IMG/VR virus record: IMGVR_UViG_3300032296_002225
Location: 1-21,150 of that record
Length of the DNA stretch: 21,150 nucleotides
Reading direction: 5' to 3' (one strand)
From: a virus
The notes under the pieces were generated by a model. That model was not told the origin of the DNA and did no database searches. It saw only the letters and a program-made list of their open reading frames with translations. Both the position numbers and the translations under genes were made by a program. The number at the start of each line of letters is the position of its first letter. Positions within the stretch are counted from its first letter, which is position 1. Below are positions 4,404 through 19,401 of the stretch, one piece after another.

Positions 4404-5357
4404 ATGGCTACATTTTACACAAATACAGGTTCAATAAATAACTTAACAATACCTGAAACAGTAACTTTTTCAGGATCAATATTTATTTCTGCTTCAGTGA
4501 CTATAACAGGATCTTTAGTTCATGGTGATAATATAGCTTCAGGTATTGGATCACATGCTCAAGGACAAGGTACTATAGCTAGTGGAGATTATTCACATAC
4601 TGAAGGGTATCAAACAATATCTAGTGGTATTGGTTCTCATGCTGAAGGCGATCAAACAATTGCTAGTGGAGACTACTCACACGCTGAAGGATATTTAACA
4701 ACATCCGCAGGTATAGGTTCTCACGCGGAAGGCTTATCTACTACATCTGTTGGGAGTTACTCTCATGCTGAAGGACAATCAACTATAGCAAATGGTTTTG
4801 CATCACATACTGAAGGTCTAAATACAAGAGCTAATGGTACAGGATCACACGCTGAAGGTACTAGTACAACCGCTGGTGGACCTTACTCACATGCTGAAGG
4901 TTCAAACACATTAGCTGCTGGTACAGGATCACATGCTGAAGGGTCCCAAACACAAGCTAATGGTCATTACTCACATGCTGAAGGAACCCAGACAAGAGCT
5001 AATGGTTGGTACAGTCATGCTGAAGGTAATATTACAACAGCCGCAGGTACAGCGTCTCACGCTATGGGGAGTAATACAATAGCTAACGCTGATTATCAAA
5101 CAGTTACAGGATTATTTAATGTTGCTACTACTGATAGTAGAAGTGTTTTTATAATAGGTGGAGGCACAGGAACTGGAACTCGAGCTAATATAGCTGAATT
5201 CTGGCAAACAGGTTCAAATGGTGGAGGCACAGTTATATTACCTTTTGTATCTTCTTCATTTATAGCTGCTAATGATACTGCCGCTGCTGGTTTAGGTGTT
5301 CCTAGAGGAGGAATATATAGAGATACTTCAGGTAATCTTAAAATAAGAATAGCTTAA
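4404..5357 (+). CDS. SHAEG-repeat beta-roll adhesin / tail fibre protein
   Basis: 317 aa. A short N-terminal module (MATFYTNTGSINNLTI) probably attaches the protein to the virion. Residues 50-231 are 13 tandem 14-residue units built on SHAEGxxTxAxGxx, many with alternating GDY/GIG ends. This is the left-handed beta-roll repeat seen in YadA-like heads and in phage proteins of the Hep_Hag/peptidase_G2 type. After the array come QTVTGLFNV and an IIGGGTGTGTRANIAEFW segment, the usual cap of such arrays. In peptidase_G2 proteins that region can self-cleave, but I see no proof here. The last 40 residues (ILPFVSS... GGIYRDTSGNLKIRIA) recur in the next gene. It is likely a trimeric surface-binding fibre. 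The start has an AAATTTATGG leader and no Shine-Dalgarno. Confidence 0.7.
   Translation: MATFYTNTGSINNLTIPETVTFSGSIFISASVTITGSLVHGDNIASGIGSHAQGQGTIASGDYSHTEGYQTISSGIGSHAEGDQTIASGDYSHAEGYLTTSAGIGSHAEGLSTTSVGSYSHAEGQSTIANGFASHTEGLNTRANGTGSHAEGTSTTAGGPYSHAEGSNTLAAGTGSHAEGSQTQANGHYSHAEGTQTRANGWYSHAEGNITTAAGTASHAMGSNTIANADYQTVTGLFNVATTDSRSVFIIGGGTGTGTRANIAEFWQTGSNGGGTVILPFVSSSFIAANDTAAAGLGVPRGGIYRDTSGNLKIRIA
4551..5096 (+). repeat. 13 x 42-bp tandem coding repeats (SHAEG units)
   Basis: Thirteen in-frame 42-base units each encode a 14-residue SH(A/T)(E/Q)G unit. The protein period is perfectly regular, but the DNA copies are diverged at third positions, so the array is old and under selection for the protein. 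In the first copies the alternation GDY / GIG suggests an 84-base super-unit, so expansion may have been by pairs. The last unit reads SHAMG and marks the end of the array. Confidence 0.85.
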
Positions 5358-5359
5358 TT

Positions 5360-6481
5360 ATGGCTCAATGGTTTACAGACAATGCATCTATTTCTAATTT
5401 AGAAATAACTAGTTCTTATATAGGAAGTGGTTCTACTTTTTTTAATAAAAGTGAGAGTATATTATACATCAATAATGGTTTAAGACAAGGTATTAATAAT
5501 GTTAATTTTAATACAACTACTAATACATCAAATCATATAGCAGGTTATAATAACTCAAGCAATGGTGAGGGAGATCATTATGAAGGATATAATAATACAT
5601 CTACATTTGGTGGTTACTCTCATGCTGAAGGAAAAGGAAATACATTATCAAATGCTGTTAGGGCTCATATCGAAGGAGAAACAAATACTATTCAACCTTC
5701 AGGACAAGCACTTTCATTTTATGGATATCACGGTGAAGGAGGAAAAAATACAATAATAGGAGCAGCTACTCCTATCCATATAGAAGGATATAATAATTTC
5801 ACTCAAATATCTAATGGAAGTCTGAGGCAACATATAGAAGGTATAAACAACATATGTTATGGTACAATACAAGGTTTTCACATAGAAGGACATAATCATA
5901 CCTTTACTGGTGGATATAGATATAATCATGTAGAAGGTGGAGAACATATTTATATGGCTGGGAACGCTAGTCATTTAGAAGGTAGAAATAACTATATAGA
6001 CGCTAATAATTCTTCTGGGACAGCTGTACATGTTGAAGGATATAATAATACTATAAACACCTCTGGATCTAATAATCACATATGTGGAATCTCATGTTCA
6101 GTTTCAATATTAATTAATAATTGTTTTTTAAATGGATTAGGATTAACAAATTATTATGGCGCTATAAATGGTGCATTTATTACAGGACAATTTAACACTT
6201 CTAATGCTTCTAGTTATATTAATATTAGCTCAACAGGAAATAAAATATATTATAATTTTACTGTAGGAGGAGGAATAAATAATAGTACTAGAAAAAACAT
6301 ATTTGAAGCAACCCTTATATCATCTGCTTCTAACGTAATTAATTTTCCTACTCGATCAATAATATTACCATGGGTCTCAGAATCTGGTGAATTTGCAAGT
6401 GACTTATTAGCTGCAGCAGGTGGTGTTCCTTTAGGTGGATTCTATAGAACAGGAAGTGATTTAAAGATAAGATTATCTTAA
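5360..6481 (+). CDS. HxEG-repeat beta-roll adhesin, paralogue of the preceding gene
   Basis: 373 aa. The N-terminus (MAQWFTDNASISNLEI) and C-terminus (ILPWVSESG... GGVPLGGFYRTGSDLKIRLS) align with those of the upstream gene (ILPFVSS... LGVPRGGIYRDTSGNLKIRIA), so the two share ancestry or at least exchange modules. The middle differs: about 12 irregular units of 14-21 residues centred on H(I/V/Y/A/L)EG and often followed by YNN, from H59 to H240. A more hydrophobic segment follows (ILINNCFLNGLGL, then FITGQFNTSN). The sequence predicts a beta-roll with larger loops than its neighbour. It begins 2 bases after the previous stop and is co-transcribed. The likely role is receptor binding or virion decoration. 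Cysteines occur in ICGISCS and NNCF, which is unusual for an adhesin of this kind. Confidence 0.65.
   Translation: MAQWFTDNASISNLEITSSYIGSGSTFFNKSESILYINNGLRQGINNVNFNTTTNTSNHIAGYNNSSNGEGDHYEGYNNTSTFGGYSHAEGKGNTLSNAVRAHIEGETNTIQPSGQALSFYGYHGEGGKNTIIGAATPIHIEGYNNFTQISNGSLRQHIEGINNICYGTIQGFHIEGHNHTFTGGYRYNHVEGGEHIYMAGNASHLEGRNNYIDANNSSGTAVHVEGYNNTINTSGSNNHICGISCSVSILINNCFLNGLGLTNYYGAINGAFITGQFNTSNASSYINISSTGNKIYYNFTVGGGINNSTRKNIFEATLISSASNVINFPTRSIILPWVSESGEFASDLLAAAGGVPLGGFYRTGSDLKIRLS
5534..6088 (+). repeat. Degenerate HxEG repeat region
   Basis: About 12 copies of a His-x-Glu/x-Gly tetrapeptide (HIAG, HYEG, HAEG, HIEG, HGEG, HVEG, HLEG, HICG) at irregular 12-21 residue spacing. One unit (YSHAEGKG) is identical in core to the regular array in the upstream gene, which supports common descent. 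Asn-rich loops (YNN, TNN) lie between the cores. Confidence 0.7.
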
Positions 6482-6807: not shown

Positions 6808-8523
6808 ATGGCAGAAACTTTAGTATCCCCAGGTGTATTAGCAAGTGAAATTGATCAATCATTTATCACTCAAGGCCCAGTAACAGCTGGGGCAGCTATC
6901 ATCGGACCAACTGTAAAAGGTCCTATAGAAATCCCAACAGTAGTTACATCATGGAATAATTTCCAAAACATATTTGGTACTACATTTATAAGTGGTGGTA
7001 ACCAATATACTTATTTTACATCAATAGCAGCTTATAATTATTTTAATAATGGTGGCACATCATTATTAGTAGCTCGTGTAAAATCAGGATCATATTCTCC
7101 TGCTACAAGTAGTATATTTAAAAGTGGCTCAACTTCAGTAGAAAGTTTTAAATTAACCACTATATCTGAAGGAGCAGATCAAAATAGTGTAGGCCCAGTA
7201 CTCGCTAATGGAGTATTAGCTAGTGGTTCTAGAGATAATATACGTTGGCAAATAACATCAGTAAATACAGCTTCAGGATATTTTAATTTAATTATTCGTA
7301 GAGGTGATGATAATAACACTAACCAAATTGTTTTAGAACAATATAATAAATTATCATTAGATCCATTTGATCCTAACTTTATATCTAAGAAAATAGGTGA
7401 TCAAACTCAAACATTAAAAACAAATGACGGATACTATCTACAAACATCAGGTAGTTATCGTGGTGCTTCAAATTATGTTAGAGTATCTTCTATAACAACT
7501 CTTACACCTAATTATTTAAATAGTAATGGTAACATATCTGACTCAGCTTATTCAGCTTCTTTACCATTAGCTGGAACATCAGGATCATTTGGTAGTGCTG
7601 TAGGTACTATAAAATCTGGGGCTCATTATTATGATTTAATTAATAACACTGATACTCAAGGGTTAGTTCCAGATAACTACGATAATATGATTAATTTATT
7701 ATCTAATGCTGATGATTATAAATTTAATTTAATTTTAACTCCTGGATTATGTGCTGATTTAACTGGTCATGGTGATAAAGTTAATGATATCATAGATGTA
7801 TGCCAAAATAGAGGAGATGCTATTTATGTTACAGATTTAGTATCATATGGTTCTACAACTACTGATGTAGTAAGTGAAGCTCAAAACAAAAATACATCAT
7901 ACGCTGCCGCTTATTGGCCTTGGGTTAGAGTTCAAGATCCAAATAGTGGCCAAAATGTTTGGACACCAGCTTCAACTGTGATAGGTGGAGTATATGCTTA
8001 TAATGATAGTGTTTCTGAACCATGGTTTGCACCAGCGGGTATTAATCGAGGTGGATTAGGCACAGTACTTCAAGCTGAAAGACAATTGCCTCAAGCTACA
8101 CGTGATACATTATATGAAGGAAAAGTAAATCCAATAGCTACATTCCCAGGTACTGGAGTAGTAGTATATGGTCAAAAGACATTACAAACTAGACCATCTG
8201 CTCTTGATCGTGTGAATGTTCGTCGTTTATTGATTGCTCTTAAGAGTTATATTTCTCAAGTAGCTAATACATTAGTATTTGAACAAAATACAGCAGCTAC
8301 AAGAAATAACTTCTTAGCACAAGTTAATCCATATTTAGAAAATGTTCAACAAAGACAAGGATTATATGCATTTAAAGTAGTAATGGATGATAGCAATAAT
8401 ACAGCTGATGTGATTGATAGAAATGAGTTAGTAGGTCAAATTTATGTTCAACCAACTAAAACTGCTGAATTTATTTACTTAGATTTCATTGTTACACCCA
8501 CTGGAGCAAGTTTCCCAGCATAA
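6808..8523 (+). CDS. gp18: Contractile tail sheath protein (T4 gp18 family)
   Basis: 571 aa; T4 gp18 is 659 aa. The sheath protein stacks in rings around the tail tube and contracts to drive the tube through the cell envelope. The N-terminus (SPGVLASEID, then a GPxxKGPIEIPTVV stretch and FxNIFG at about residue 54) is classic sheath. In the middle, W370 begins the WPWVRVQDPN segment and S403 begins SEPWFAPAGINRGG, the conserved core of sheath proteins. The C-terminal domain starts near V469 (VNVRRL), continues with a helix and FEQNTAATRNNF, and ends with PTKTAEFIYLDFIV, the strand region that links neighbouring subunits. The start is chosen at the first ATG, 25 bases after the promoter motif. 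The tube gene follows. Confidence 0.95.
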   Translation: MAETLVSPGVLASEIDQSFITQGPVTAGAAIIGPTVKGPIEIPTVVTSWNNFQNIFGTTFISGGNQYTYFTSIAAYNYFNNGGTSLLVARVKSGSYSPATSSIFKSGSTSVESFKLTTISEGADQNSVGPVLANGVLASGSRDNIRWQITSVNTASGYFNLIIRRGDDNNTNQIVLEQYNKLSLDPFDPNFISKKIGDQTQTLKTNDGYYLQTSGSYRGASNYVRVSSITTLTPNYLNSNGNISDSAYSASLPLAGTSGSFGSAVGTIKSGAHYYDLINNTDTQGLVPDNYDNMINLLSNADDYKFNLILTPGLCADLTGHGDKVNDIIDVCQNRGDAIYVTDLVSYGSTTTDVVSEAQNKNTSYAAAYWPWVRVQDPNSGQNVWTPASTVIGGVYAYNDSVSEPWFAPAGINRGGLGTVLQAERQLPQATRDTLYEGKVNPIATFPGTGVVVYGQKTLQTRPSALDRVNVRRLLIALKSYISQVANTLVFEQNTAATRNNFLAQVNPYLENVQQRQGLYAFKVVMDDSNNTADVIDRNELVGQIYVQPTKTAEFIYLDFIVTPTGASFPA

Positions 8524-8560: not shown

Positions 8561-9049
8561 ATGGCGATATTAAATTCAAACGAAATATTTTTTACAGCAT
8601 TTGAGCCAAAACAGGCAAACAGATTTATCCTATATATGGATGGTGTTCCTAGCTATATAGTAAAGGGAGTAAACGCTGTAACTGTATCACAAGGTGAAGT
8701 AGTACTAAACCATATTAATGTGTACAGAAAGGTTAAAGGAAAAACAACATGGGGTGATATTCAAATGACCCTATTTGACCCAATCACACCTTCTGGAGCT
8801 CAATCAGTAATGGAATGGGTACGTTTACACCACGAATCAGTGACAGGACGCGATGGATACTCCGATTTTTATAAAAAGGACTTAGTATTAGATGTTTTAG
8901 GACCTGTAGGTGATGTTGTTAGTGAATGGATTATAAAAGGCGCATTTATTAAAGAAGCCAATTTTGGTGATTATAACTGGGATACTGAAAATACCGCTGT
9001 GAATATCACAATGACTGTTGGAATGGATTATTGCGTATTAAACTTCTAA
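8561..9049 (+). CDS. gp19: Tail tube protein (T4 gp19 family)
   Basis: 162 aa, almost exactly the length of T4 gp19 (163 aa). It forms the hexameric rings of the inner tail tube through which DNA passes. Visible family signs are the N-terminal EPKQANRFILYMDGVPSYIV stretch (strand and loop), a central TWGDIQMTLFDP segment, MEWVRLHHE with GRDGY at about residues 86-99, and a C-terminal strand pair ending in VNITMTVGMDYC. Position right after the sheath gene is the T4 order 18-19. The gene looks slightly richer in G and C than its neighbours by eye, as often seen for highly expressed genes. A terminator follows within 20 bases of the stop. Confidence 0.93.
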   Translation: MAILNSNEIFFTAFEPKQANRFILYMDGVPSYIVKGVNAVTVSQGEVVLNHINVYRKVKGKTTWGDIQMTLFDPITPSGAQSVMEWVRLHHESVTGRDGYSDFYKKDLVLDVLGPVGDVVSEWIIKGAFIKEANFGDYNWDTENTAVNITMTVGMDYCVLNF

Positions 9050-9068
9050 TATCTATTATTTAAACATA

Positions 9069-9100
9069 AAAAGCTCACAGCAATGTGGGCTTTTCTTTTT
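9069..9100 (+). terminator. Intrinsic terminator after the tail tube gene
   Basis: AAAAGCTCACA (9069-9079) pairs with TGTGGGCTTTT (9084-9094) over 11 bp with one G-U pair, closing a GCAA tetraloop of the GNRA class. The right arm runs into TTTTCTTTTT (9091-9100). Being A-rich on the left and T-rich on the right, it could work on both strands. It closes the sheath-tube unit. Confidence 0.88.
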
Positions 9101-9104
9101 CTAA

Positions 9105-9112
9105 TATTTATA
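9105..9112 (+). promoter_or_regulatory. Candidate late promoter after the tube terminator
   Basis: AATATTTATAATAAA begins 4 bases after the terminator T-tract and its core ends 11 bases before the ATG at 9124. The terminator-promoter pairing makes a new transcription unit starting here the simplest reading. Confidence 0.55.
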
Positions 9113-9123
9113 ATAAAAATAAT

Positions 9124-9729
9124 ATGGGTCTATTAGAATTATTATTACAAAACCAATCAGATTTAGATATTGATCCATCACCTCCAATAGGTAATGGTCC
9201 TGTAGGTACACCAACAGGTGAATTTAATACTGGGGCGAATCCATTTATTCAGGTTTGGAACTCAGATAATACTTATATAAATTCATTTATAGGAGGAACA
9301 AATGTTGGAATACAACCTCCAACACTAACAGAAACAGGTTTAGATATTGATAATCCAAACTATAATCCATCTACTACTACTCCTAATACTTTAACAGTCT
9401 ACCCAGCTACAGCTGTAGGTGGGTTAGGGCAAAGTGCAGTTCAATTTTTACAAATATGGAACCCAGTAGTAAATTATAATGATGTTGTAGTAGGTGCTCC
9501 TACAAGTCCTTTAGAACAATCATTAGATGAAACTGGATTAGATATTGAGAATCAAGAAGCTGTTCCTACAACATATGCTGTACCTGAAGTAGATAATACT
9601 GTTTACCCATATGTTGAAGGAGCAATATTGCAACCTGAATCATCTGGAAGTACTATAACTAATTTCAAACAAAACTGGAAACCAACAAATACCTATTTAT
9701 CTTACATTAAAGATGAAGAATCTGTTTAA
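9124..9729 (+). CDS. Unrecognised protein with three internal repeats
   Basis: 201 aa from the ATG at 9124. An upstream in-frame GTG at 9085 is rejected because it lies inside the terminator stem. I do not recognise the family. Three copies of a roughly 60-70 residue unit can be seen. Each begins with LDI(D/E) (residues 14, 73 and 139; the second and third extended to ETGLDI). Each continues through a Pro/Thr/Asn-rich stretch and ends with an aromatic motif FxQxW(N/K) (residues 41, 108 and 181) followed by a Tyr-rich tail (NTYINSF, VNYNDVV, NTYLSYI). There is no cysteine, signal peptide or membrane segment, and it is acidic overall. Its place between tube and chaperone genes, with its own promoter, suggests a virion or tail-assembly role. 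Three repeats fit binding to three-fold or six-fold rings, but that is inference. Confidence 0.6.
   Translation: MGLLELLLQNQSDLDIDPSPPIGNGPVGTPTGEFNTGANPFIQVWNSDNTYINSFIGGTNVGIQPPTLTETGLDIDNPNYNPSTTTPNTLTVYPATAVGGLGQSAVQFLQIWNPVVNYNDVVVGAPTSPLEQSLDETGLDIENQEAVPTTYAVPEVDNTVYPYVEGAILQPESSGSTITNFKQNWKPTNTYLSYIKDEESV
9244..9690 (+). repeat. FxQxW / LDI three-fold protein repeat
   Basis: The three FxQxW motifs start at bases 9244, 9445 and 9664, a spacing of 67 and 73 codons. The LDI motifs precede them by 27-42 codons. The repeats are visible only at protein level, so the duplication is old. Confidence 0.6.
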
Positions 9730-9785: not shown

Positions 9786-10517
9786 ATGGAAAACAAATTA
9801 AACATCCCTACAGAAATTATTGAACTTCCTTCTAAAGGACTTATCTACCCAGAATCATCACCATTATCTAAAGGTGAGGTAGAAATGAAATATATGACCG
9901 CTCGTGAAGAAGATATATTAACTAACCAAAATTACATCCAGAAAGGTACGGTATTAGATGAGTTAATTAAATCACTTATTGTCTCCGATGTAAATTATGA
10001 TGACTTAATAGTAGGCGATAAAAACGCATTATTAGTAGCAGCTCGTGTTTTAGGATATGGTAAAGATTATACATTTATATGGGGTGGAGAAAACCAAACT
10101 GTTGATTTATCAACATTAGAGAATAAACCTTTAAATGAGAAATTATTTAAAAAGGGAATTAATGAATTTGATTTTACTTTACCTGCTTCTAATATTAATA
10201 TAACTTTTAAATTAATAACAGGCGCTGACGAAAAAAGAATTAAGTCTGAATTAGAGGGTATGAAGAAAATTAATAAAAACTTCTCAGCGGATTTATCTAC
10301 TCGTTTAAAATACATTATTACTTCTATAAACGGAAATAGAGAATTTAAAGATATTAGAGAATTTATTGATAATAATCTATTAGCTCGAGACTCTCGAGCA
10401 TTGAGAGAATATATTAAAGAAATGCAGCCAGACGTTGATCTGACTTTTTTTCCCGACGGAAGCGGAGAAAAAATTAACATTCCAATTAGACTTGACTTTT
10501 TTTGGCCTGACATCTGA
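9786..10517 (+). CDS. Baseplate hub gp26-like / tail assembly chaperone, upstream frame
   Basis: 243 aa. The N-terminal half, with TEIIELPSKGLIYPESSPL, KGEVEMKYMTAREEDIL and a DDLIVGDKNALLVAARVLGYG segment (residues about 8-105), matches proteins annotated in T4-like phages as gp26-type baseplate hub/assembly proteins. It is also similar in layout to the E/gp41-type tail assembly chaperones of other myoviruses. The C-terminal half is Lys-rich and helical, with an ADLSTRLKYIITSINGNREF stretch. The gene lies just before the tape measure gene, the usual site of the G/GT chaperone pair, and its last 26 bases overlap a second frame that has no good start of its own. I infer that the short product and a frameshifted fusion are both made. 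The start ATG follows AAATTT. Confidence 0.7.
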   Translation: MENKLNIPTEIIELPSKGLIYPESSPLSKGEVEMKYMTAREEDILTNQNYIQKGTVLDELIKSLIVSDVNYDDLIVGDKNALLVAARVLGYGKDYTFIWGGENQTVDLSTLENKPLNEKLFKKGINEFDFTLPASNINITFKLITGADEKRIKSELEGMKKINKNFSADLSTRLKYIITSINGNREFKDIREFIDNNLLARDSRALREYIKEMQPDVDLTFFPDGSGEKINIPIRLDFFWPDI

Positions 10518-10791
10518 TTTAGCCCCAGAAGCTAGAGCTAGAATATTTTCTCAAATCCATGAAATAGTTTTTTACGGTCAAGGTGGATATGATTGGAACA
10601 CAATTTATAACATGCCTATTTGGTTACGTAGGTTCACCTATAACAAAATGATAGAACATTATGAAAAACAAAATAAACAACATAATGAAGATCTAGCAAC
10701 TCAATCCCAGAAAATTAAAGAAGGTAAAGTAGATCTACCCTCACATTTTAAAGGTAAGATGGACAATACTAAAAGAGTAGCCAAGTATTAA
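10492..10791 (+). CDS. Tail assembly chaperone C-terminal frame (GT-like extension)
   Basis: About 95-99 aa, probably made as a fusion to the upstream protein (334-335 aa in total) and not from its own start. The only start at the 5' end is a TTG inside the slippery region, and the first ATG is at the MPIW segment, about 40 codons in. Residues include a TSDLAPEARARIFSQIHEI helix, then FYGQGGYDWNTIYNMPIWLR and FTYNKMIEHYEKQNKQ, a Trp/Met-Pro pattern followed by an amphipathic helix. This is a layout I associate with the second half of tail chaperones near the tape measure gene. The C-terminus is Lys-rich. The stop lies in the loop of a terminator hairpin. Such chaperones coat the tape measure protein before tube polymerisation. 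Confidence 0.65.
   Translation: MTFFGLTSDLAPEARARIFSQIHEIVFYGQGGYDWNTIYNMPIWLRRFTYNKMIEHYEKQNKQHNEDLATQSQKIKEGKVDLPSHFKGKMDNTKRVAKY
10493..10503 (+). other. Probable programmed frameshift site
   Basis: TGACTTTTTTT occurs 14 bases before the upstream stop (TGA 10515-10517). The upstream frame reads GAC TTT TTT TGG and the downstream frame reads ACT TTT TTT GGC, so a +1 slip of tRNA-Phe (or a -2 slip) joins them. The same 11-mer occurs at 10441-10451, exactly 52 bases earlier. Both frames are open between 10444 and 10514. Confidence 0.6.
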
Positions 10792-10831: not shown

Positions 10832-13210
10832 ATGGCAACAGGACAACCAGGACAACCAGGACAACAACCTCAAATGTCAGCAGCTGATTTAGCAAAATTA
10901 GTTGAATTATATAAAAAAATAGATGGTCTTACAGAGTCCGCGGCTAAAAATGCTGCTGATTTAGCTAAACAAAATGGTAACGCTGCTAATGAATTATCTC
11001 GTTTACAAAAAGAATGGGATGATCTTACTAAAGGTATTGCGGGTACTAGAGAATCTTTTGCTAGAATAGTAGACGATATAAAAGGTTTTAGCAGTGGAGT
11101 TAATAGAGCTACTACTGCTTTTAAAGGTTTAGAAAGCTTAGCTAGTAAACTTCAATACCATCAATCAGGCATCAGTCGCTTATCAGCTAAGGAATTAGAA
11201 ACATTAAAGAAAAAAGCCCAACAGAAATTAACAGATTTAGAATTAGCTAAAAAATTAGCTGATGAAGAGACAAGAAGATTATATCTTATAAGAGGTAGAA
11301 GTGATGAGGATTTAAAAGCATATCAAGAAGCTTTAGCTAGATCAACAGAAATAAATGGTCAAATAAATGAAAATGTTAGTGCTTATAAAGACTTTAATTA
11401 TCAATTAGAACATAATATTGATATTCAAAAACAAATTGAGGAGTCTTTAGGAGCGGCTGGAGCATTAGTAAAAGGAGTATCTAAAATTCCATTCTTAGGA
11501 GATTTACCTGGAATGAAAGATGTTCTACAGGAGGTTGAAGAAGAAATTAGAAGAATTGAAGAAACAGAGGGAAGAGTAGTTAGCAAAGCTGAAGCTATGA
11601 GCATGACCTTTAAGAAAATGGGTCCTGTGATTGGAAAAGGATTAATGGATCCTATGACAGGTGTAGTGGCTGTTCTTAAATTTGCTTGGGATGTTATTAA
11701 AGGTATAGATGCTGGAGCAGGGGAATTAGCTAAAAGCATGAATATGTCTTATAAATCTGCTCTACAATTTAGAACCCAATTTACAGATATAGCATCTGCT
11801 TCAAATGATGCTTCTCTTAATACTAAAAATCTTCAAGCTAGTTATATGGCTATTGGCCAAGCTTTAGGAGCAAATGCTGATATAAATGAAAAAGATTTAA
11901 AAACCTTCACTAAATTAAGAGAACAAGCGGGTTACACTAATGAAGAATTAATGGGGATGTATAAAATATCTTTAACAACTGGAAAAAGTGTTGAAGAAGT
12001 TACATCTGGGTTTCTAGGAGGAGCCGAAGCCTTATCAGCACAAAAAGGACTTTCAATTAATGTTAAACAATTAATGAAAGAAACAGCTAATACCTCAGCT
12101 GCTATTAGATTATCATTAGGTGGAAGTAGTAAAGCGTTAGCTGAAGCAGCTGTCAAAGCTAAAGAAATGGGTATAAACTTGGACCAAGCTGATAAAATAG
12201 CAGGTTCATTACTTAATTTTGAAGACAGTATCTCAGCTGAATTAGAAGCAGAATTATTAACTGGTAAACAAATTAATCTTGAGGCAGCTCGATTAGCAGC
12301 TATAAATGGTGACATTGGAACAATGGCTGAAGAAATTAATAGCCAAATAGGAGGCTCAGCTGAATTTACTAAAATGAATCGTATTCAACAAGAAGCTTAT
12401 GCTAATGCTGTTGGAATGTCAAGAGAAGATTTAGCGGAATCATTAGTTCAACAAGAAGCATTACAAAGAGTAGGTGCTAAAACAGCTGAGGAAGCTAAAA
12501 AAAGATATGATGATTTAAGATCTAAAGGACTAACCGCTGAACAAGCCGCTGTAGAATTAGGTGATGCACAATTAGCTCAACAATTTGAACAACAAAGTAA
12601 CGCTGAAAGATTCCAACAAGCTATTGAAAAATTAAAAGATATGCTTGTTGAAATGATGGATGGCCCGTTAAATAAAATATTAGGTGTATTTCAAACTTTA
12701 GTAGAAAACGCGGGGTTAATTAAATTTATATTTGCTGCTATAGCAGGTATAATGACTGGAAAGATGGCTATAGGATTATACCAAATGGTTGCTAAATTAG
12801 GTATAGCTTTAGGATTATCAACAGCTCGAGCTGCAGCTGAGGTGACAGCGGCATCCGCATTAACTTTTGGAGCAGCTGCTTTTGGTATAATAGCTGGATT
12901 AACAGCGGTTATGGGGGTACTTGGAGCATTTTCTGGTGGTGGTAAATCTGTACAAGATGCTCAAATCGCCCCAGATGGAGGATTAATGGTTTCAGGCCCA
13001 AAAGGTACATTCCAATTAGATAAAGATGACACAGTAATAGCAGGTACTGATCTAAATAAAAAGGGTAATTCATCAAATCAATCTTCCTCTTCAAATGTTA
13101 TAGTTAAAGGAGGTGAAACATCACTTACAATTAATGGTGAAGTATTCGCTCGACTAGTAACACCATTTATAGTTGAAGAACTAAATAAAAGAAATACGCT
13201 AGTTCAATAA
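10832..13210 (+). CDS. Tail tape measure protein
   Basis: 792 aa. It sets tail length and occupies the tube lumen until DNA ejection. The N-terminus has a short GQPGQPGQQPQ repeat, then long charged helices (about residues 15-230), including Lys/Glu-rich coiled-coil stretches. The middle is Ala/Ser/Lys-rich helix. Hydrophobic segments lie at about 629-645, 649-664 and 676-704, as expected of tape measure proteins that reach the host membrane. The C-terminal domain (QIAPDGGLMVSGPKGTFQLD, then DDTVIAGTDL) is the typical ending of phage tape measure proteins, followed by a Ser-rich linker and a last helix. At about 1.5 angstrom per residue it implies a tail near 120 nm. It sits right after the chaperone genes and behind a candidate late promoter. 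Confidence 0.92.
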   Translation: MATGQPGQPGQQPQMSAADLAKLVELYKKIDGLTESAAKNAADLAKQNGNAANELSRLQKEWDDLTKGIAGTRESFARIVDDIKGFSSGVNRATTAFKGLESLASKLQYHQSGISRLSAKELETLKKKAQQKLTDLELAKKLADEETRRLYLIRGRSDEDLKAYQEALARSTEINGQINENVSAYKDFNYQLEHNIDIQKQIEESLGAAGALVKGVSKIPFLGDLPGMKDVLQEVEEEIRRIEETEGRVVSKAEAMSMTFKKMGPVIGKGLMDPMTGVVAVLKFAWDVIKGIDAGAGELAKSMNMSYKSALQFRTQFTDIASASNDASLNTKNLQASYMAIGQALGANADINEKDLKTFTKLREQAGYTNEELMGMYKISLTTGKSVEEVTSGFLGGAEALSAQKGLSINVKQLMKETANTSAAIRLSLGGSSKALAEAAVKAKEMGINLDQADKIAGSLLNFEDSISAELEAELLTGKQINLEAARLAAINGDIGTMAEEINSQIGGSAEFTKMNRIQQEAYANAVGMSREDLAESLVQQEALQRVGAKTAEEAKKRYDDLRSKGLTAEQAAVELGDAQLAQQFEQQSNAERFQQAIEKLKDMLVEMMDGPLNKILGVFQTLVENAGLIKFIFAAIAGIMTGKMAIGLYQMVAKLGIALGLSTARAAAEVTAASALTFGAAAFGIIAGLTAVMGVLGAFSGGGKSVQDAQIAPDGGLMVSGPKGTFQLDKDDTVIAGTDLNKKGNSSNQSSSSNVIVKGGETSLTINGEVFARLVTPFIVEELNKRNTLVQ
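10841..10867 (+). repeat. 9-bp x 3 tandem repeat at the tape measure N-terminus
   Basis: GGACAACCA is repeated twice exactly and a third time with one change. It encodes GQPGQPGQQ, a short collagen-like or flexible leader. Such short tandem copies can vary in number between related strains. Confidence 0.75.
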
Positions 13211-15597: not shown

Positions 15598-18500
15598 ATG
15601 GGAGAAGTTATAGGAAAAGGTTTTGATAAGTATGTCCAAGAACAAGTACTTAAAAGACAAGAAAAATTAAGACAAGGACAAATAGATATAGATGTAATAA
15701 AATGGAATAATACTAACAATGCCTTTTTACGTTTATCATCTGGTGTTAATGTATCTAGTAATTTTGTTAAAGATAAATTAGGACTAGATGAAATTATTTA
15801 CAAAGATAATAATTTAGCTAAATATTTTAAATTATTTGCCGCTCAAGCATATGATGGTTCAACTTATAATTTTACTAAAGGAGTAGGATATAATTTTCAA
15901 TCATCTTATGGATTTGCATCTCCAACTTATACATCATATGGATTAGTCCCACCCCCAGGTTTAATATCCGCTGATATTAAAGCTTTAAATCGTGGTTCAT
16001 TACGTGAAGCTAATATTCAAATTAAATGCCATAATCTTCAACAATTCCAAATTATTGAAGCATTATATTTAAGATTGAAATATAGTATACTTTTAGAATG
16101 GGGTCATAGTATATATTTTGACAATAATGGTAATCTAATCCAATCTTCCCACGATTTATCAGATGAATTTTTAAGTGGAAATAATAATCAAACTGATATT
16201 CTTAAAAAAATACAAACTGAAAGAGAAGCATCATACGGAAATTATGATGCGTTTTTTGGTTTAATTACTAATTTTGAATGGACAGTTAGACCTGATGGAG
16301 GATATGATGTAAGTTTAAGAGCTAGATCCTCAGGAGATGTTATAGAATCATTAAAAATTAATACTAACACACCTGTCACAACAGACAATTCATCACCAGC
16401 AAGTCCTTTAATTTTTATCCAAGATGAAAGTAAATCTATTTTAAATAGATTACTTAGAACTATAAGTTATAAAATTAATAATTATGGTTCTAATGTAACT
16501 TGGGCTCATGGTTATGTTGATACTTCAAAAACATATTTCCCATTAAATAACCAATCTATGGGAGCTAATACAGGAGGTGGTTTAAAAACAGCTTATGATA
16601 GATCTACTCCTCCATATCAAGATAAAAAAGATAAATATTTAACTGATTATGAAGCTCGTACATTTACTAATGTACAAAACTTATCAATATCTAAAGCTGA
16701 TTATAATAGACTATATTATATTAAATTAGGTACTTTATTAAGGTTTATAGAATCATTTACTATATTATATGATAGTAGTACTAAAACATCAAATAATAAT
16801 CCATTATTTAATATAGATTATAATTTTGATACTAATTATTGTTTCTCTATCCCATATCATTTTTCATCAGACCCAAGAATATGTCTAATCCCATATCCTA
16901 CAGCAAACTCAGCTAAAAAACTAGCTTCAGGACAATTGATGATTGAAACATTTAGAGCTATAGGAATAACTTATGACCTAGATCCACAATATAGTGATCC
17001 TAACACATCTAGTAATGTAGATTTATATAAATCCCTTAATTCAGCTTTAAATAGTGCTAGTAAATATACCGTATATCAATTGACAAATAGTGGGGCTAAT
17101 AGGTGTATATACACTTATAGAGGTACAACTACTGGTCCTGGACTTTACACTGGCTCTAAAAACTCAGCAGGAACTCAAGCTAATATACCTAATACAACTA
17201 AAACATACGATACAGATTATAAATCTTATATTGAAAGCACAGATATAAATACAGAACCTGGCCGTAATACCTTTATATACGATGGAGTTATACCAGCAGT
17301 TAATGATTTAAAAAATTCAACATCTAAAATTGATGCTAATTTTTCACCTGAAAAATATGTTTATGCACAGTGGGTTAACACAGTATATTATAAATTTATA
17401 GTAGAAACTATAACCACAGAATTAAATGGGACAATACTTAGTAAAAAAACAACATCTAAATTAGATAATAGTACTGGTACATCCACTCCAAATCCTTCTT
17501 ATACTCAAAATTCTACAACTAGTATAGATAGAATAACAGGTCAAACAACAACAATTTTAACAGAAGAATATAATGTTACAGCTAGAGAATATTATTTAGA
17601 TGTAGCTGAATTTTCAAATACAGCAGCTACAGGTTTTACATCAGCAACACTTGGTGGTATATATAAAACATTAGAAGCTGATAATAATGATTCTACTTAT
17701 CCTTGGAAGAAAGATCTATATGATGAAAAGGAATACACAGGTAGAACAATGAATATGCTTGTTAATATTGAATATATAGCTAAAATATTACGTAATAATA
17801 TTAATGTTAAAGAAGGCTCTATAAATTTATATGAGTTTTTAGATAAATTAATGGCTGGAATACAAAATGCTTTAGGAAATATTAATAAATTTGAAGTTAT
17901 ATATAAAGAAGATACTAATGCTTTTAAAATAATAGACAGCACCCTCATACCAGGCCAATTTAATAACCAGTCTAGCCCTTATGATAAAAAGATAGTAGAG
18001 TTTTTAATAGCATCCTCAGGTAGTTTAGGAACAACTGGTGGTAGTTTTATTACTGATTTTAATTTTAAAACAAAATTATCTAATAATTTCTCTACTATGG
18101 TAACAGTAGGAGCACAAGCAAATGGAGCTGTTGTAGGATCAGATGCTACTGCTTTAAGTAAGTGGAATGATGGTTTAACAGATAGAATTATACCTGAGAG
18201 ATCTAATCCTAATGGAGTTATAACTAACACAACAAATGCCGAGTTAGAGTATCAGACAAATTTAATTAAAATACAAAAATTTTTATTAAATACTAATGAT
18301 GGGATAGTCACTGATGAGGAGATATCATCTATCATAAACATAGTTAATGATATATTTAAGACTAAAATATCTGCCTCTACCTTAGAACACAAAACTAAAG
18401 GAAATAATAACGGTATTCCAGGTATAGGCTTTATTCCTTTTGATTTAGAATTAAATATGATAGGATTAAGTGGTCCAAGAATATATGAATCATATACTAT

Positions 18501-19401
18501 TGATACTAGATTACTACCTAAATCATACCAGGATTCTATTCAATTTATATGTTCTGGAGTTTCTCATAATATATCAAATGGTGAATGGAAAACTACTTTA
18601 AATAGTATATGTGGTCCTAAACAAGAGGGAGTAGTGGTAGGAAAAATGAAACCTGGAACTCCTATTGTTAGTACTCCACCTCCACCACCCGCCCCTGCTT
18701 CCTCAGGTAAAGGTGGAGTAACACTTTTAGATTGTGAAGCTAGAAAAGATGGTTGTTCACCTCAAACAAAACCATTAGTAGACCAATCTCAAGCTAAACC
18801 CAATATTCCAAATTCAAAAAATCCTGGAGTAAGAGCTGGTGTTAAATTAGCTGATATAAAAGATAGAAATCAAGAATATATATTTAATGAATATTTAGCT
18901 ACTTTAGAAAAAATGCCTGAATATAGTTCATTAACAAAAGGATTTAAAGTATTAATGACATCACAAGCAATTAATGAAGGATTTTATCCAAATAAAAAAA
19001 ACTGTAACGCTATTACTGGTAAATGTGGAACAAGAGCATATAGAACTAATAACCCAGGAAATATAAATAATACTGACACTGGCAATGAAAATGCTTACTC
19101 AACATTAGAAGAGGGTATTAGAGCACAAATAGAATACATTAAAGACTCATCAGAAGGAAATACTAAGGCACATAAATTTCGTAAAGTTTCATTTTGCAGA
19201 TCATATAGCCCAGAATTAAAAGAGTGTTTACCAGCTTTTGAATTTGAGTATAAGGGTGAAATAGGATATTATCTTTTTATATATGCCACAGCACCACGCA
19301 TAAGTAATAATTATTTAGAAAATATATTAGGGTTTTATAAGTATAATGGGATAGATGTTAATTATAAAAATACAATAAAAGAAATTATTAATATAACTTA
19401 A
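15598..19401 (+). CDS. Baseplate hub protein with C-terminal peptidoglycan hydrolase
   Basis: 1267 aa, the largest gene here. The N-terminal ~1020 residues are hub-like. N131 starts NRGSLREANIQIKCHNLQQF and I164 starts ILLEWGHSIYF, both typical of the large hub/lysozyme proteins of marine T4-like phages. Another hub-like stretch is FITDFNFKTKLSNNFSTMV (around 818-836). A Pro-rich linker begins at P1027. Residues about 1100-1267 look like a lysozyme-fold hydrolase. ASQ-type helix MTSQAINEGF contains E1127, a candidate catalytic acid, and T1150-I1156 (TNNPGNI) followed by AYSTLEEGIRAQIEYI matches cell-wall hydrolases found in virions. This would do the work of T4 gp27 plus gp5 in one chain: anchor the tube tip and cut the wall. 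Six cysteines cluster in three pairs (see findings). The exact hydrolase family is uncertain. Confidence 0.8.
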   Translation: MGEVIGKGFDKYVQEQVLKRQEKLRQGQIDIDVIKWNNTNNAFLRLSSGVNVSSNFVKDKLGLDEIIYKDNNLAKYFKLFAAQAYDGSTYNFTKGVGYNFQSSYGFASPTYTSYGLVPPPGLISADIKALNRGSLREANIQIKCHNLQQFQIIEALYLRLKYSILLEWGHSIYFDNNGNLIQSSHDLSDEFLSGNNNQTDILKKIQTEREASYGNYDAFFGLITNFEWTVRPDGGYDVSLRARSSGDVIESLKINTNTPVTTDNSSPASPLIFIQDESKSILNRLLRTISYKINNYGSNVTWAHGYVDTSKTYFPLNNQSMGANTGGGLKTAYDRSTPPYQDKKDKYLTDYEARTFTNVQNLSISKADYNRLYYIKLGTLLRFIESFTILYDSSTKTSNNNPLFNIDYNFDTNYCFSIPYHFSSDPRICLIPYPTANSAKKLASGQLMIETFRAIGITYDLDPQYSDPNTSSNVDLYKSLNSALNSASKYTVYQLTNSGANRCIYTYRGTTTGPGLYTGSKNSAGTQANIPNTTKTYDTDYKSYIESTDINTEPGRNTFIYDGVIPAVNDLKNSTSKIDANFSPEKYVYAQWVNTVYYKFIVETITTELNGTILSKKTTSKLDNSTGTSTPNPSYTQNSTTSIDRITGQTTTILTEEYNVTAREYYLDVAEFSNTAATGFTSATLGGIYKTLEADNNDSTYPWKKDLYDEKEYTGRTMNMLVNIEYIAKILRNNINVKEGSINLYEFLDKLMAGIQNALGNINKFEVIYKEDTNAFKIIDSTLIPGQFNNQSSPYDKKIVEFLIASSGSLGTTGGSFITDFNFKTKLSNNFSTMVTVGAQANGAVVGSDATALSKWNDGLTDRIIPERSNPNGVITNTTNAELEYQTNLIKIQKFLLNTNDGIVTDEEISSIINIVNDIFKTKISASTLEHKTKGNNNGIPGIGFIPFDLELNMIGLSGPRIYESYTIDTRLLPKSYQDSIQFICSGVSHNISNGEWKTTLNSICGPKQEGVVVGKMKPGTPIVSTPPPPPAPASSGKGGVTLLDCEARKDGCSPQTKPLVDQSQAKPNIPNSKNPGVRAGVKLADIKDRNQEYIFNEYLATLEKMPEYSSLTKGFKVLMTSQAINEGFYPNKKNCNAITGKCGTRAYRTNNPGNINNTDTGNENAYSTLEEGIRAQIEYIKDSSEGNTKAHKFRKVSFCRSYSPELKECLPAFEFEYKGEIGYYLFIYATAPRISNNYLENILGFYKYNGIDVNYKNTIKEIINIT

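Follow-up and report, generated by a model that had tools for sequence, protein, structure and literature searches.

The locus described here raises the question of how a reading frame with no usable start codon, lying directly before a phage tape measure gene, comes to be translated. The answer suggested by comparison of sequences is a one-base forward skip (+1), which ribosomes very probably make at a conserved spot in a large group of contractile-tailed phages that has been little studied, and which gives both a short and a long tail assembly chaperone (TAC). Frameshifting TACs are known. What appears to be new is +1 shifting in the T4 gp26/gp51-type TAC family, of which no earlier report was found in the literature searched, where Vladimirov et al. 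2022 is represented by the papers that cite it.

The locus and its two frames

The window, which is the whole stretch of DNA analysed, is a virus fragment of 21,150 bases. On its plus strand it carries the genes of a tail sheath (6808-8523; phrog_23 tail sheath, E = 2e-79), a tail tube (8561-9049; phrog_4542 tail tube, E = 1e-21), a 243-aa gp26-like TAC (TAC-N, 9786-10517) and a probable tape measure protein of 792 aa (10832-13210). The last was assigned from its position and from the gene at the same place in Flavobacterium phage immuto, which is annotated as tail tape measure protein. An orphan ORF with a GTG start (9085-9729) sits between the tube and TAC genes.

TAC-N is the 0-frame product. 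Its frame ends CTT GAC TTT TTT TGG CCT GAC ATC TGA, with the stop at 10515-10517. A second frame, shifted by +1 (equivalently -2), is open from 10444 to a TAA at 10789-10791, and its first ATG is at 10612, 40 codons past a TTG at 10492. The candidate frameshift site, TTT TTT TGG CCT in 0-frame codons, lies at 10497-10508 on the plus strand. Fusion of the two frames was computed to give a putative product of 334 aa (TAC-NC, …LDFF-GLTSD…; 9786-10791, plus strand), in which the +1-frame domain, TAC-C, accounts for 95 aa and the TAA stop (10504-10791, plus strand). An 11-mer, TGACTTTTTTT, occurs exactly at 10441-10451 and 10493-10503, at a spacing of 52 nt; the TGA of the first copy (plus strand) closes the +1 frame. 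The initial annotation had placed both frames correctly (the first ending at 10517, the second open over 10444-10791), together with both copies of the 11-mer, 52 bp apart. It had also read the overlap as a programmed shift that fuses a tail chaperone just before the tape measure gene, with which the comparative data agree (160/160 readable loci).

By profile, the 243-aa ORF is a member of the T4 gp26/gp51 family (phrog_150, PF12322). It matches phrog_150 with E = 1.4e-10 and Pfam T4_baseplate with 18.6 bits, under the cut-off of 24.5; two relatives, LR756508 and SP-15, reach 56 and 100 bits, respectively. T4 gp26 and gp51 were both placed in PF12322 and phrog_150 by profile search; gp51 reaches the end of the longer profile, while gp26 ends where TAC-N ends. 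The fused product of the window matches phrog_150 across the junction. When the fused profile was compared with the gp51 family, both domains were aligned weakly (E = 4e-4, probability 36%), and the C domain alone gave no significant profile match to gp51. The two domains were modelled apart. The AlphaFold model of TAC-N has a pLDDT of 91 and its BFVD matches are SP-15 and T4-like hub assembly proteins, while TAC-C is predicted to form two helices, the second one long, with a short loop region between them. A fold search of the PDB with TAC-N returned nothing significant, with the HK97 TAC (2ob9) as a non-significant fold match only, and no solved structure related to TAC-N by sequence was found. 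The earlier guess that gp26-like proteins are misannotated chaperones was right in substance, except that T4-like TACs had already been identified: Vladimirov et al. 2022 is cited for this and for some T4-like phages in which a short gene is accompanied by a longer, fused one (PMC10885494), and elsewhere for -1 signals of the poly-T kind in the TAC genes of T4-like phages (PMC12846349).

Conservation of the site and of the frame relation

Relatives were collected by two scans of IMG/VR. A protein scan, for which only peptides upstream of the site served as queries, found 80 loci with 60-84% identity; a further 80, with 39-49% identity to another member, came from a profile scan. Annotated phages were added, namely Flavobacterium immuto, Microcystis Mel-JY01, Rhodothermus RM378, Bacillus SP-15, Listeria LIS04, Streptococcus GXN1, Streptomyces GiJojo and BRock, and several jumbo phages. 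The 161 loci include the window, and 160 are readable for the C domain, as one contig ends too early. The IMG/VR loci are not mutually independent. Codon statistics were taken from 28 representatives below 60% amino acid identity. A scan of prokaryote genomes gave no relatives, so this is not a common prophage gene.

These loci directly show how the site is built, how the two frames are related and that no start of the second frame is conserved. A search with a C-domain profile placed the C domain in the +1 frame in all 160 readable loci. The same relation is seen in the cultured genomes of immuto, Mel-JY01, RM378, SP-15, LIS04 and GXN1, where the frame of RM378, like those of the Streptomyces phages, XacN1, PA5oct and Atu_ph07, was taken from ORF extent and alignment and not from significant profile scores. 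No frame was assigned to Alishewanella Slickus01. An arrangement that recurs in 160/160 readable loci is more than chance. The site has the consensus YTT-T(GG/AC)-CCT in the 161 loci and the 0-frame ends F-F/L-W/Y-P, the spellings being TTT TTT TGG CCT (116 loci), TTT TTT TAC CCT (37), TTT CTT TGG CCT (6), TTC TTT TGG CCT (1) and TTC TTT TAC CCT (1). The 0-frame stop follows 5-10 codons past the first Phe codon, and in a quarter of loci the +1 frame is shut within 5 codons upstream of the site. Protein conservation in the alternative frame starts at the residue after the shift (G/T-L), and the C domain has invariant L, Y, P and R residues.

The run of seven T (T7) is not essential, as TTTCTTT, TTCTTTT, TTCTTTCGT and CTGTTTCGC stand at the same place in relatives, and the sites without it retain a UUU_Y or CUU_U slip. 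The initial annotation had proposed to look in relatives for conservation of both the T7 run and the +1 relation, and for loss of the run with the two proteins kept separate. The relation is conserved (160/160 readable loci), the run itself is not, and where it is missing the +1 relation persists with the substitute slip sequences. A second slip point at the upstream 11-mer, which had also been suggested, was rejected: a run of six or more T is found near there in just 44 of 161 loci, the first copy is not conserved as a slip site, which leaves one slip locus.

Conservation at the nucleotide level is limited to the site itself. The Pro codon is CCT in 28/28 representatives, compared with 33% usage over the rest of these genes (p = 3e-14), although part of this conservation could stem from dual coding. 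TTT is above usage at both Phe codons in the representatives (p = 0.003 and 0.0005) in a test done per amino acid; pooling all amino acids overstates the Phe columns, since TTT is the usual Phe codon. TTT is favoured in these genes anyway (75-78%), and part of the TTT TTT conservation is therefore codon usage. Tyr at the site is written TAC and never TAT (3/3 representatives, 38/38 loci). Other in-frame TTT TTT pairs occur 46 times in the 161 genes, and none is then followed by T. The alternative-frame codons directly past the shift are rare ones in the representatives (GGC, 35 of 379 Gly codons; CTG, 28 of 701 Leu codons). No excess nucleotide conservation was found in the representatives at codons -6 to -2 before the site.

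Mechanism and direction of the probable shift

It is highly probable, judging from the conserved sequences, that a single TAC gene of the T4 gp26/gp51 family gives two products by +1 slippage in the P site at the conserved site. Most ribosomes would keep the 0-frame and halt at 10515, yielding TAC-N (243 aa). In a minority, the P-site tRNA-Phe (tRNA-Leu in the CTT variants) on YUU would move forward one base and re-pair with UUU or UUC, and reading in the +1 frame would then yield TAC-NC (334 aa). In the window, the slip is expected on the second TTT (10500-10502), with the new frame picked up at GGC 10504 and a junction peptide that would be LDFFGLTSDLAPEAR. The 0-frame A-site codon, an invariant choice of UGG or UAC in the window's group, is, by indirect evidence, probably slow. 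If lambda gpG/gpGT is a guide, many copies of TAC-N and few of TAC-NC would cover the tape measure protein and bring in subunits of the tail tube. We infer the slippage itself and its efficiency, just as we do the slow A-site codon and the chaperone role.

The initial annotation had given the shift as +1 or -2. Its frame relation stands, and the direction is most likely +1, which is favoured over -2 shifting, transcriptional slippage and sequencing error because T7 is replaceable at the site. Frameshifting by -2 on the T-run, as in phage Mu, would produce the identical frame relation with one extra residue (LDFFF-GL), and TTT TTT T permits re-pairing two bases back in most loci. However, two-base re-pairing of tRNA-Phe is barred by TTC TTT T (L096, L100), by TTC TTT CGT in GXN1 and by CTG TTT CGC in the Streptomyces phages, so that a Mu-type move is not available in all members, and it is improbable here. 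A move of one base forward, on the other hand, lets the tRNA re-pair throughout: YTT T is conserved in the 161 loci, and each distant +1 member offers UUU_Y or CUU_U. The sites of the latter are TTT CTA TTC (LR756508), TTT TTT TGG (RM378), TTT TTT CAC (SP-15), TTT TTT AGT (LIS04), TTC TTT CGT (GXN1) and CTG TTT CGC (Streptomyces phages).

TAC-C could instead be a separate protein that is made from its own start, either the TTG at 10492 or a later ATG, and coupled to the termination of TAC-N. The window does have this TTG, and the annotation of immuto begins a 36-aa ORF at a downstream ATG. Nevertheless, the TTG is TTA in close relatives and TTA or other codons in relatives generally; no ATG position is common to more than 14% of the 161 loci, and in 46 of the 161 the open alternative frame lacks ATG, GTG and TTG alike at or upstream of the site. 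The first downstream ATG of that frame comes at a median of 32 codons, past the start of the conserved block and thus within the conserved domain, whereas conservation starts at the slip site. The chance of a separate start is accordingly slim. The initial annotation had noted the lack of a usable start (a TTG, then an ATG about 40 codons in) and had named an own conserved ATG in relatives as evidence against a shift; none is conserved among the 161 loci.

Slippage of RNA polymerase on the seven-T run, a possible slippage tract, would yield a minority of mRNAs one T shorter with the fusion in-frame, but relatives without a long homopolymer (TTTCTTT, TTCTTTCGT, CTGTTTCGC) hold the same frame relation, which makes this very unlikely. 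A sequencing or assembly error that splits one real ORF in the homopolymer is conceivable for a single metagenomic contig in which removal of one T would fuse the frames, but has next to no probability: many assemblies (160 loci) and several cultured genomes agree on the relation, even at sites that lack a long homopolymer, and no relative with a single intact ORF was found in the group.

The proposed +1 slip resembles those of E. coli prfB (CUU_UGA) and influenza PA-X (UCC_UUU_CGU), in which a P-site YUU moves one base forward onto UUY (PMC3498833, PMC10885494). The GXN1 site is exactly UUU_CGU, i.e. of the PA-X type, and the immuto site is CUU_U, of the prfB type. In contrast to prfB and PA-X, where the A site holds a stop codon or a rare codon for Arg, the window's group has UGG or UAC, and no Shine-Dalgarno-like stimulator is evident. 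A universal Shine-Dalgarno element was sought near the site and not found, the upstream excess being weak (7/28 representatives versus 13% in the control). A universal 3' structure was not found over the representatives either (mean z of -0.9 to -1.4), and the window gave z = -0.85 and +0.27. A GC-rich hairpin that starts 5 nt past the T-run and carries the 0-frame stop codon within the loop is present in one sublineage only (L104, GGGGTC-TGATTATC-GACCCC; L126, AGGGCC-TAATTATA-GGCCCT). A strong stem at this place is seen in 36% of representatives versus 3% of control positions. Structure may tune the slip site, yet it cannot define it, because the window is without the hairpin. In the hairpin loci (L104, L126, L127, L147, L136 and others), the stem lies 12-31 nt past the first Phe codon, and its arms vary between loci yet pair.

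Relation to other chaperones and to T4

TAC frameshifting has been described as widespread 'except T4', with a shift of -1 (the usual one), -2 or +1 depending on the phage (PMC5009743). The lambda gpG/gpGT pair is similar to the window in having a short ORF and an overlapping second frame before the tape measure gene, with a shift that comes late in the first ORF (PMC5009743); here, too, the overlapping second frame stands directly before that gene with no conserved start. The shift in lambda is -1 as opposed to +1, its slip sequence is unrelated, and no sequence relation of the window TAC to gpG is detectable. The haloarchaeal myovirus HSTV-2 is likewise contractile-tailed, and its TAC is described as very likely +1 (PMC5009743). 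The TACs of Vandenendeviridae and Andersonviridae, also myophages, share a poly-T slip site at the end of TAC-N, although the shift is -1 at GTTTTT and the phage group is another one (PMC12846349).

A further comparison is with T4 itself. Its gp26, of the same family, is a short form that stops at the same Phe-Phe motif (…EFFELL), and gp51 is a long form with a C domain of a Y-S/W…M-P…R pattern similar to that of the window fusion. Unlike in the window, the two forms are paralogous genes on opposite strands, and no frameshift is needed. The window's group has one gene with a +1 second frame and not two genes, and all readable relatives are alike. Long-tailed phages are said to obtain their two TAC forms by frameshifting as a rule, with T4 as the exception (PMC5009743). 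In a large sister group with T4-type TACs, there now appears to be a frameshift signal, of the less common +1 kind.

Four jumbo phages, Atu_ph07 (L091), RAS14 (L172), XacN1 (L173) and PA5oct (L174), together with LR756511 (L089), have their C domain in the -1 frame, and the same Phe-Phe codons make up a canonical -1 heptamer, T_TTT_TTY, there. Shifting by -1 at these codons is apparent in proteobacterial jumbo phages from their sequences. In the tree, the core +1 group is united (97/93), as is the proteobacterial -1 group (100/95), and gp26 and gp51 form a branch of their own; for the deepest branches, the placement is unsure. The chances are even that the Phe-Phe codons ending the T4-type TAC-N are one ancient decoding point that can be switched, being used for +1 shifting in Flavobacterium-type, Microcystis, SP-15-type and Streptomyces myophages and for -1 shifting in proteobacterial jumbo phages, and replaced by gene duplication in T4 (gp26 short, gp51 long). 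If this is true, the two genes of T4 are a later substitute for a frameshift on which much of the family still relies. Taken with the jumbo-phage -1 sites at the same codons, the 28 diverged +1 sites would provide a natural series on what sets the direction of slippage in bacteria.

Enterobacter phage EC-F2, a Pseudotevenvirus, carries a long gp51-like gene and a probable short gp26-like gene in tandem (L180 1501-2794). Unlike in T4, they are on one strand with an 8-nt overlap, an order that is possibly nearer to the arrangement after duplication.

TAC-C is overlooked or miscalled in current records. The 36-aa hypothetical protein of immuto (immuto26A_233, L082 6854-6964) is a fragment of the +1-frame C domain, and SP-15 has a similar short ORF call (L087 3809-3928). 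In the -1 members named above, the C domain is at present unannotated or called a separate hypothetical gene.

Other ORFs of the window deserve mention. The 1267-aa ORF of the baseplate region (15598-19401) gave no Pfam or PHROG match, and its immuto counterpart is annotated as a carboxypeptidase. The orphan ORF at 9085-9729, for which no family match was found, has a 25-nt repeat present three times at spacings of 177 and 198 nt, and its protein has an LDID-type motif. The ORF at 4404-5357 consists of YadA-head-like repeats (SHAEG… units) and probably encodes a tail fibre; its neighbour at 5360-6481 resembles it by eye.
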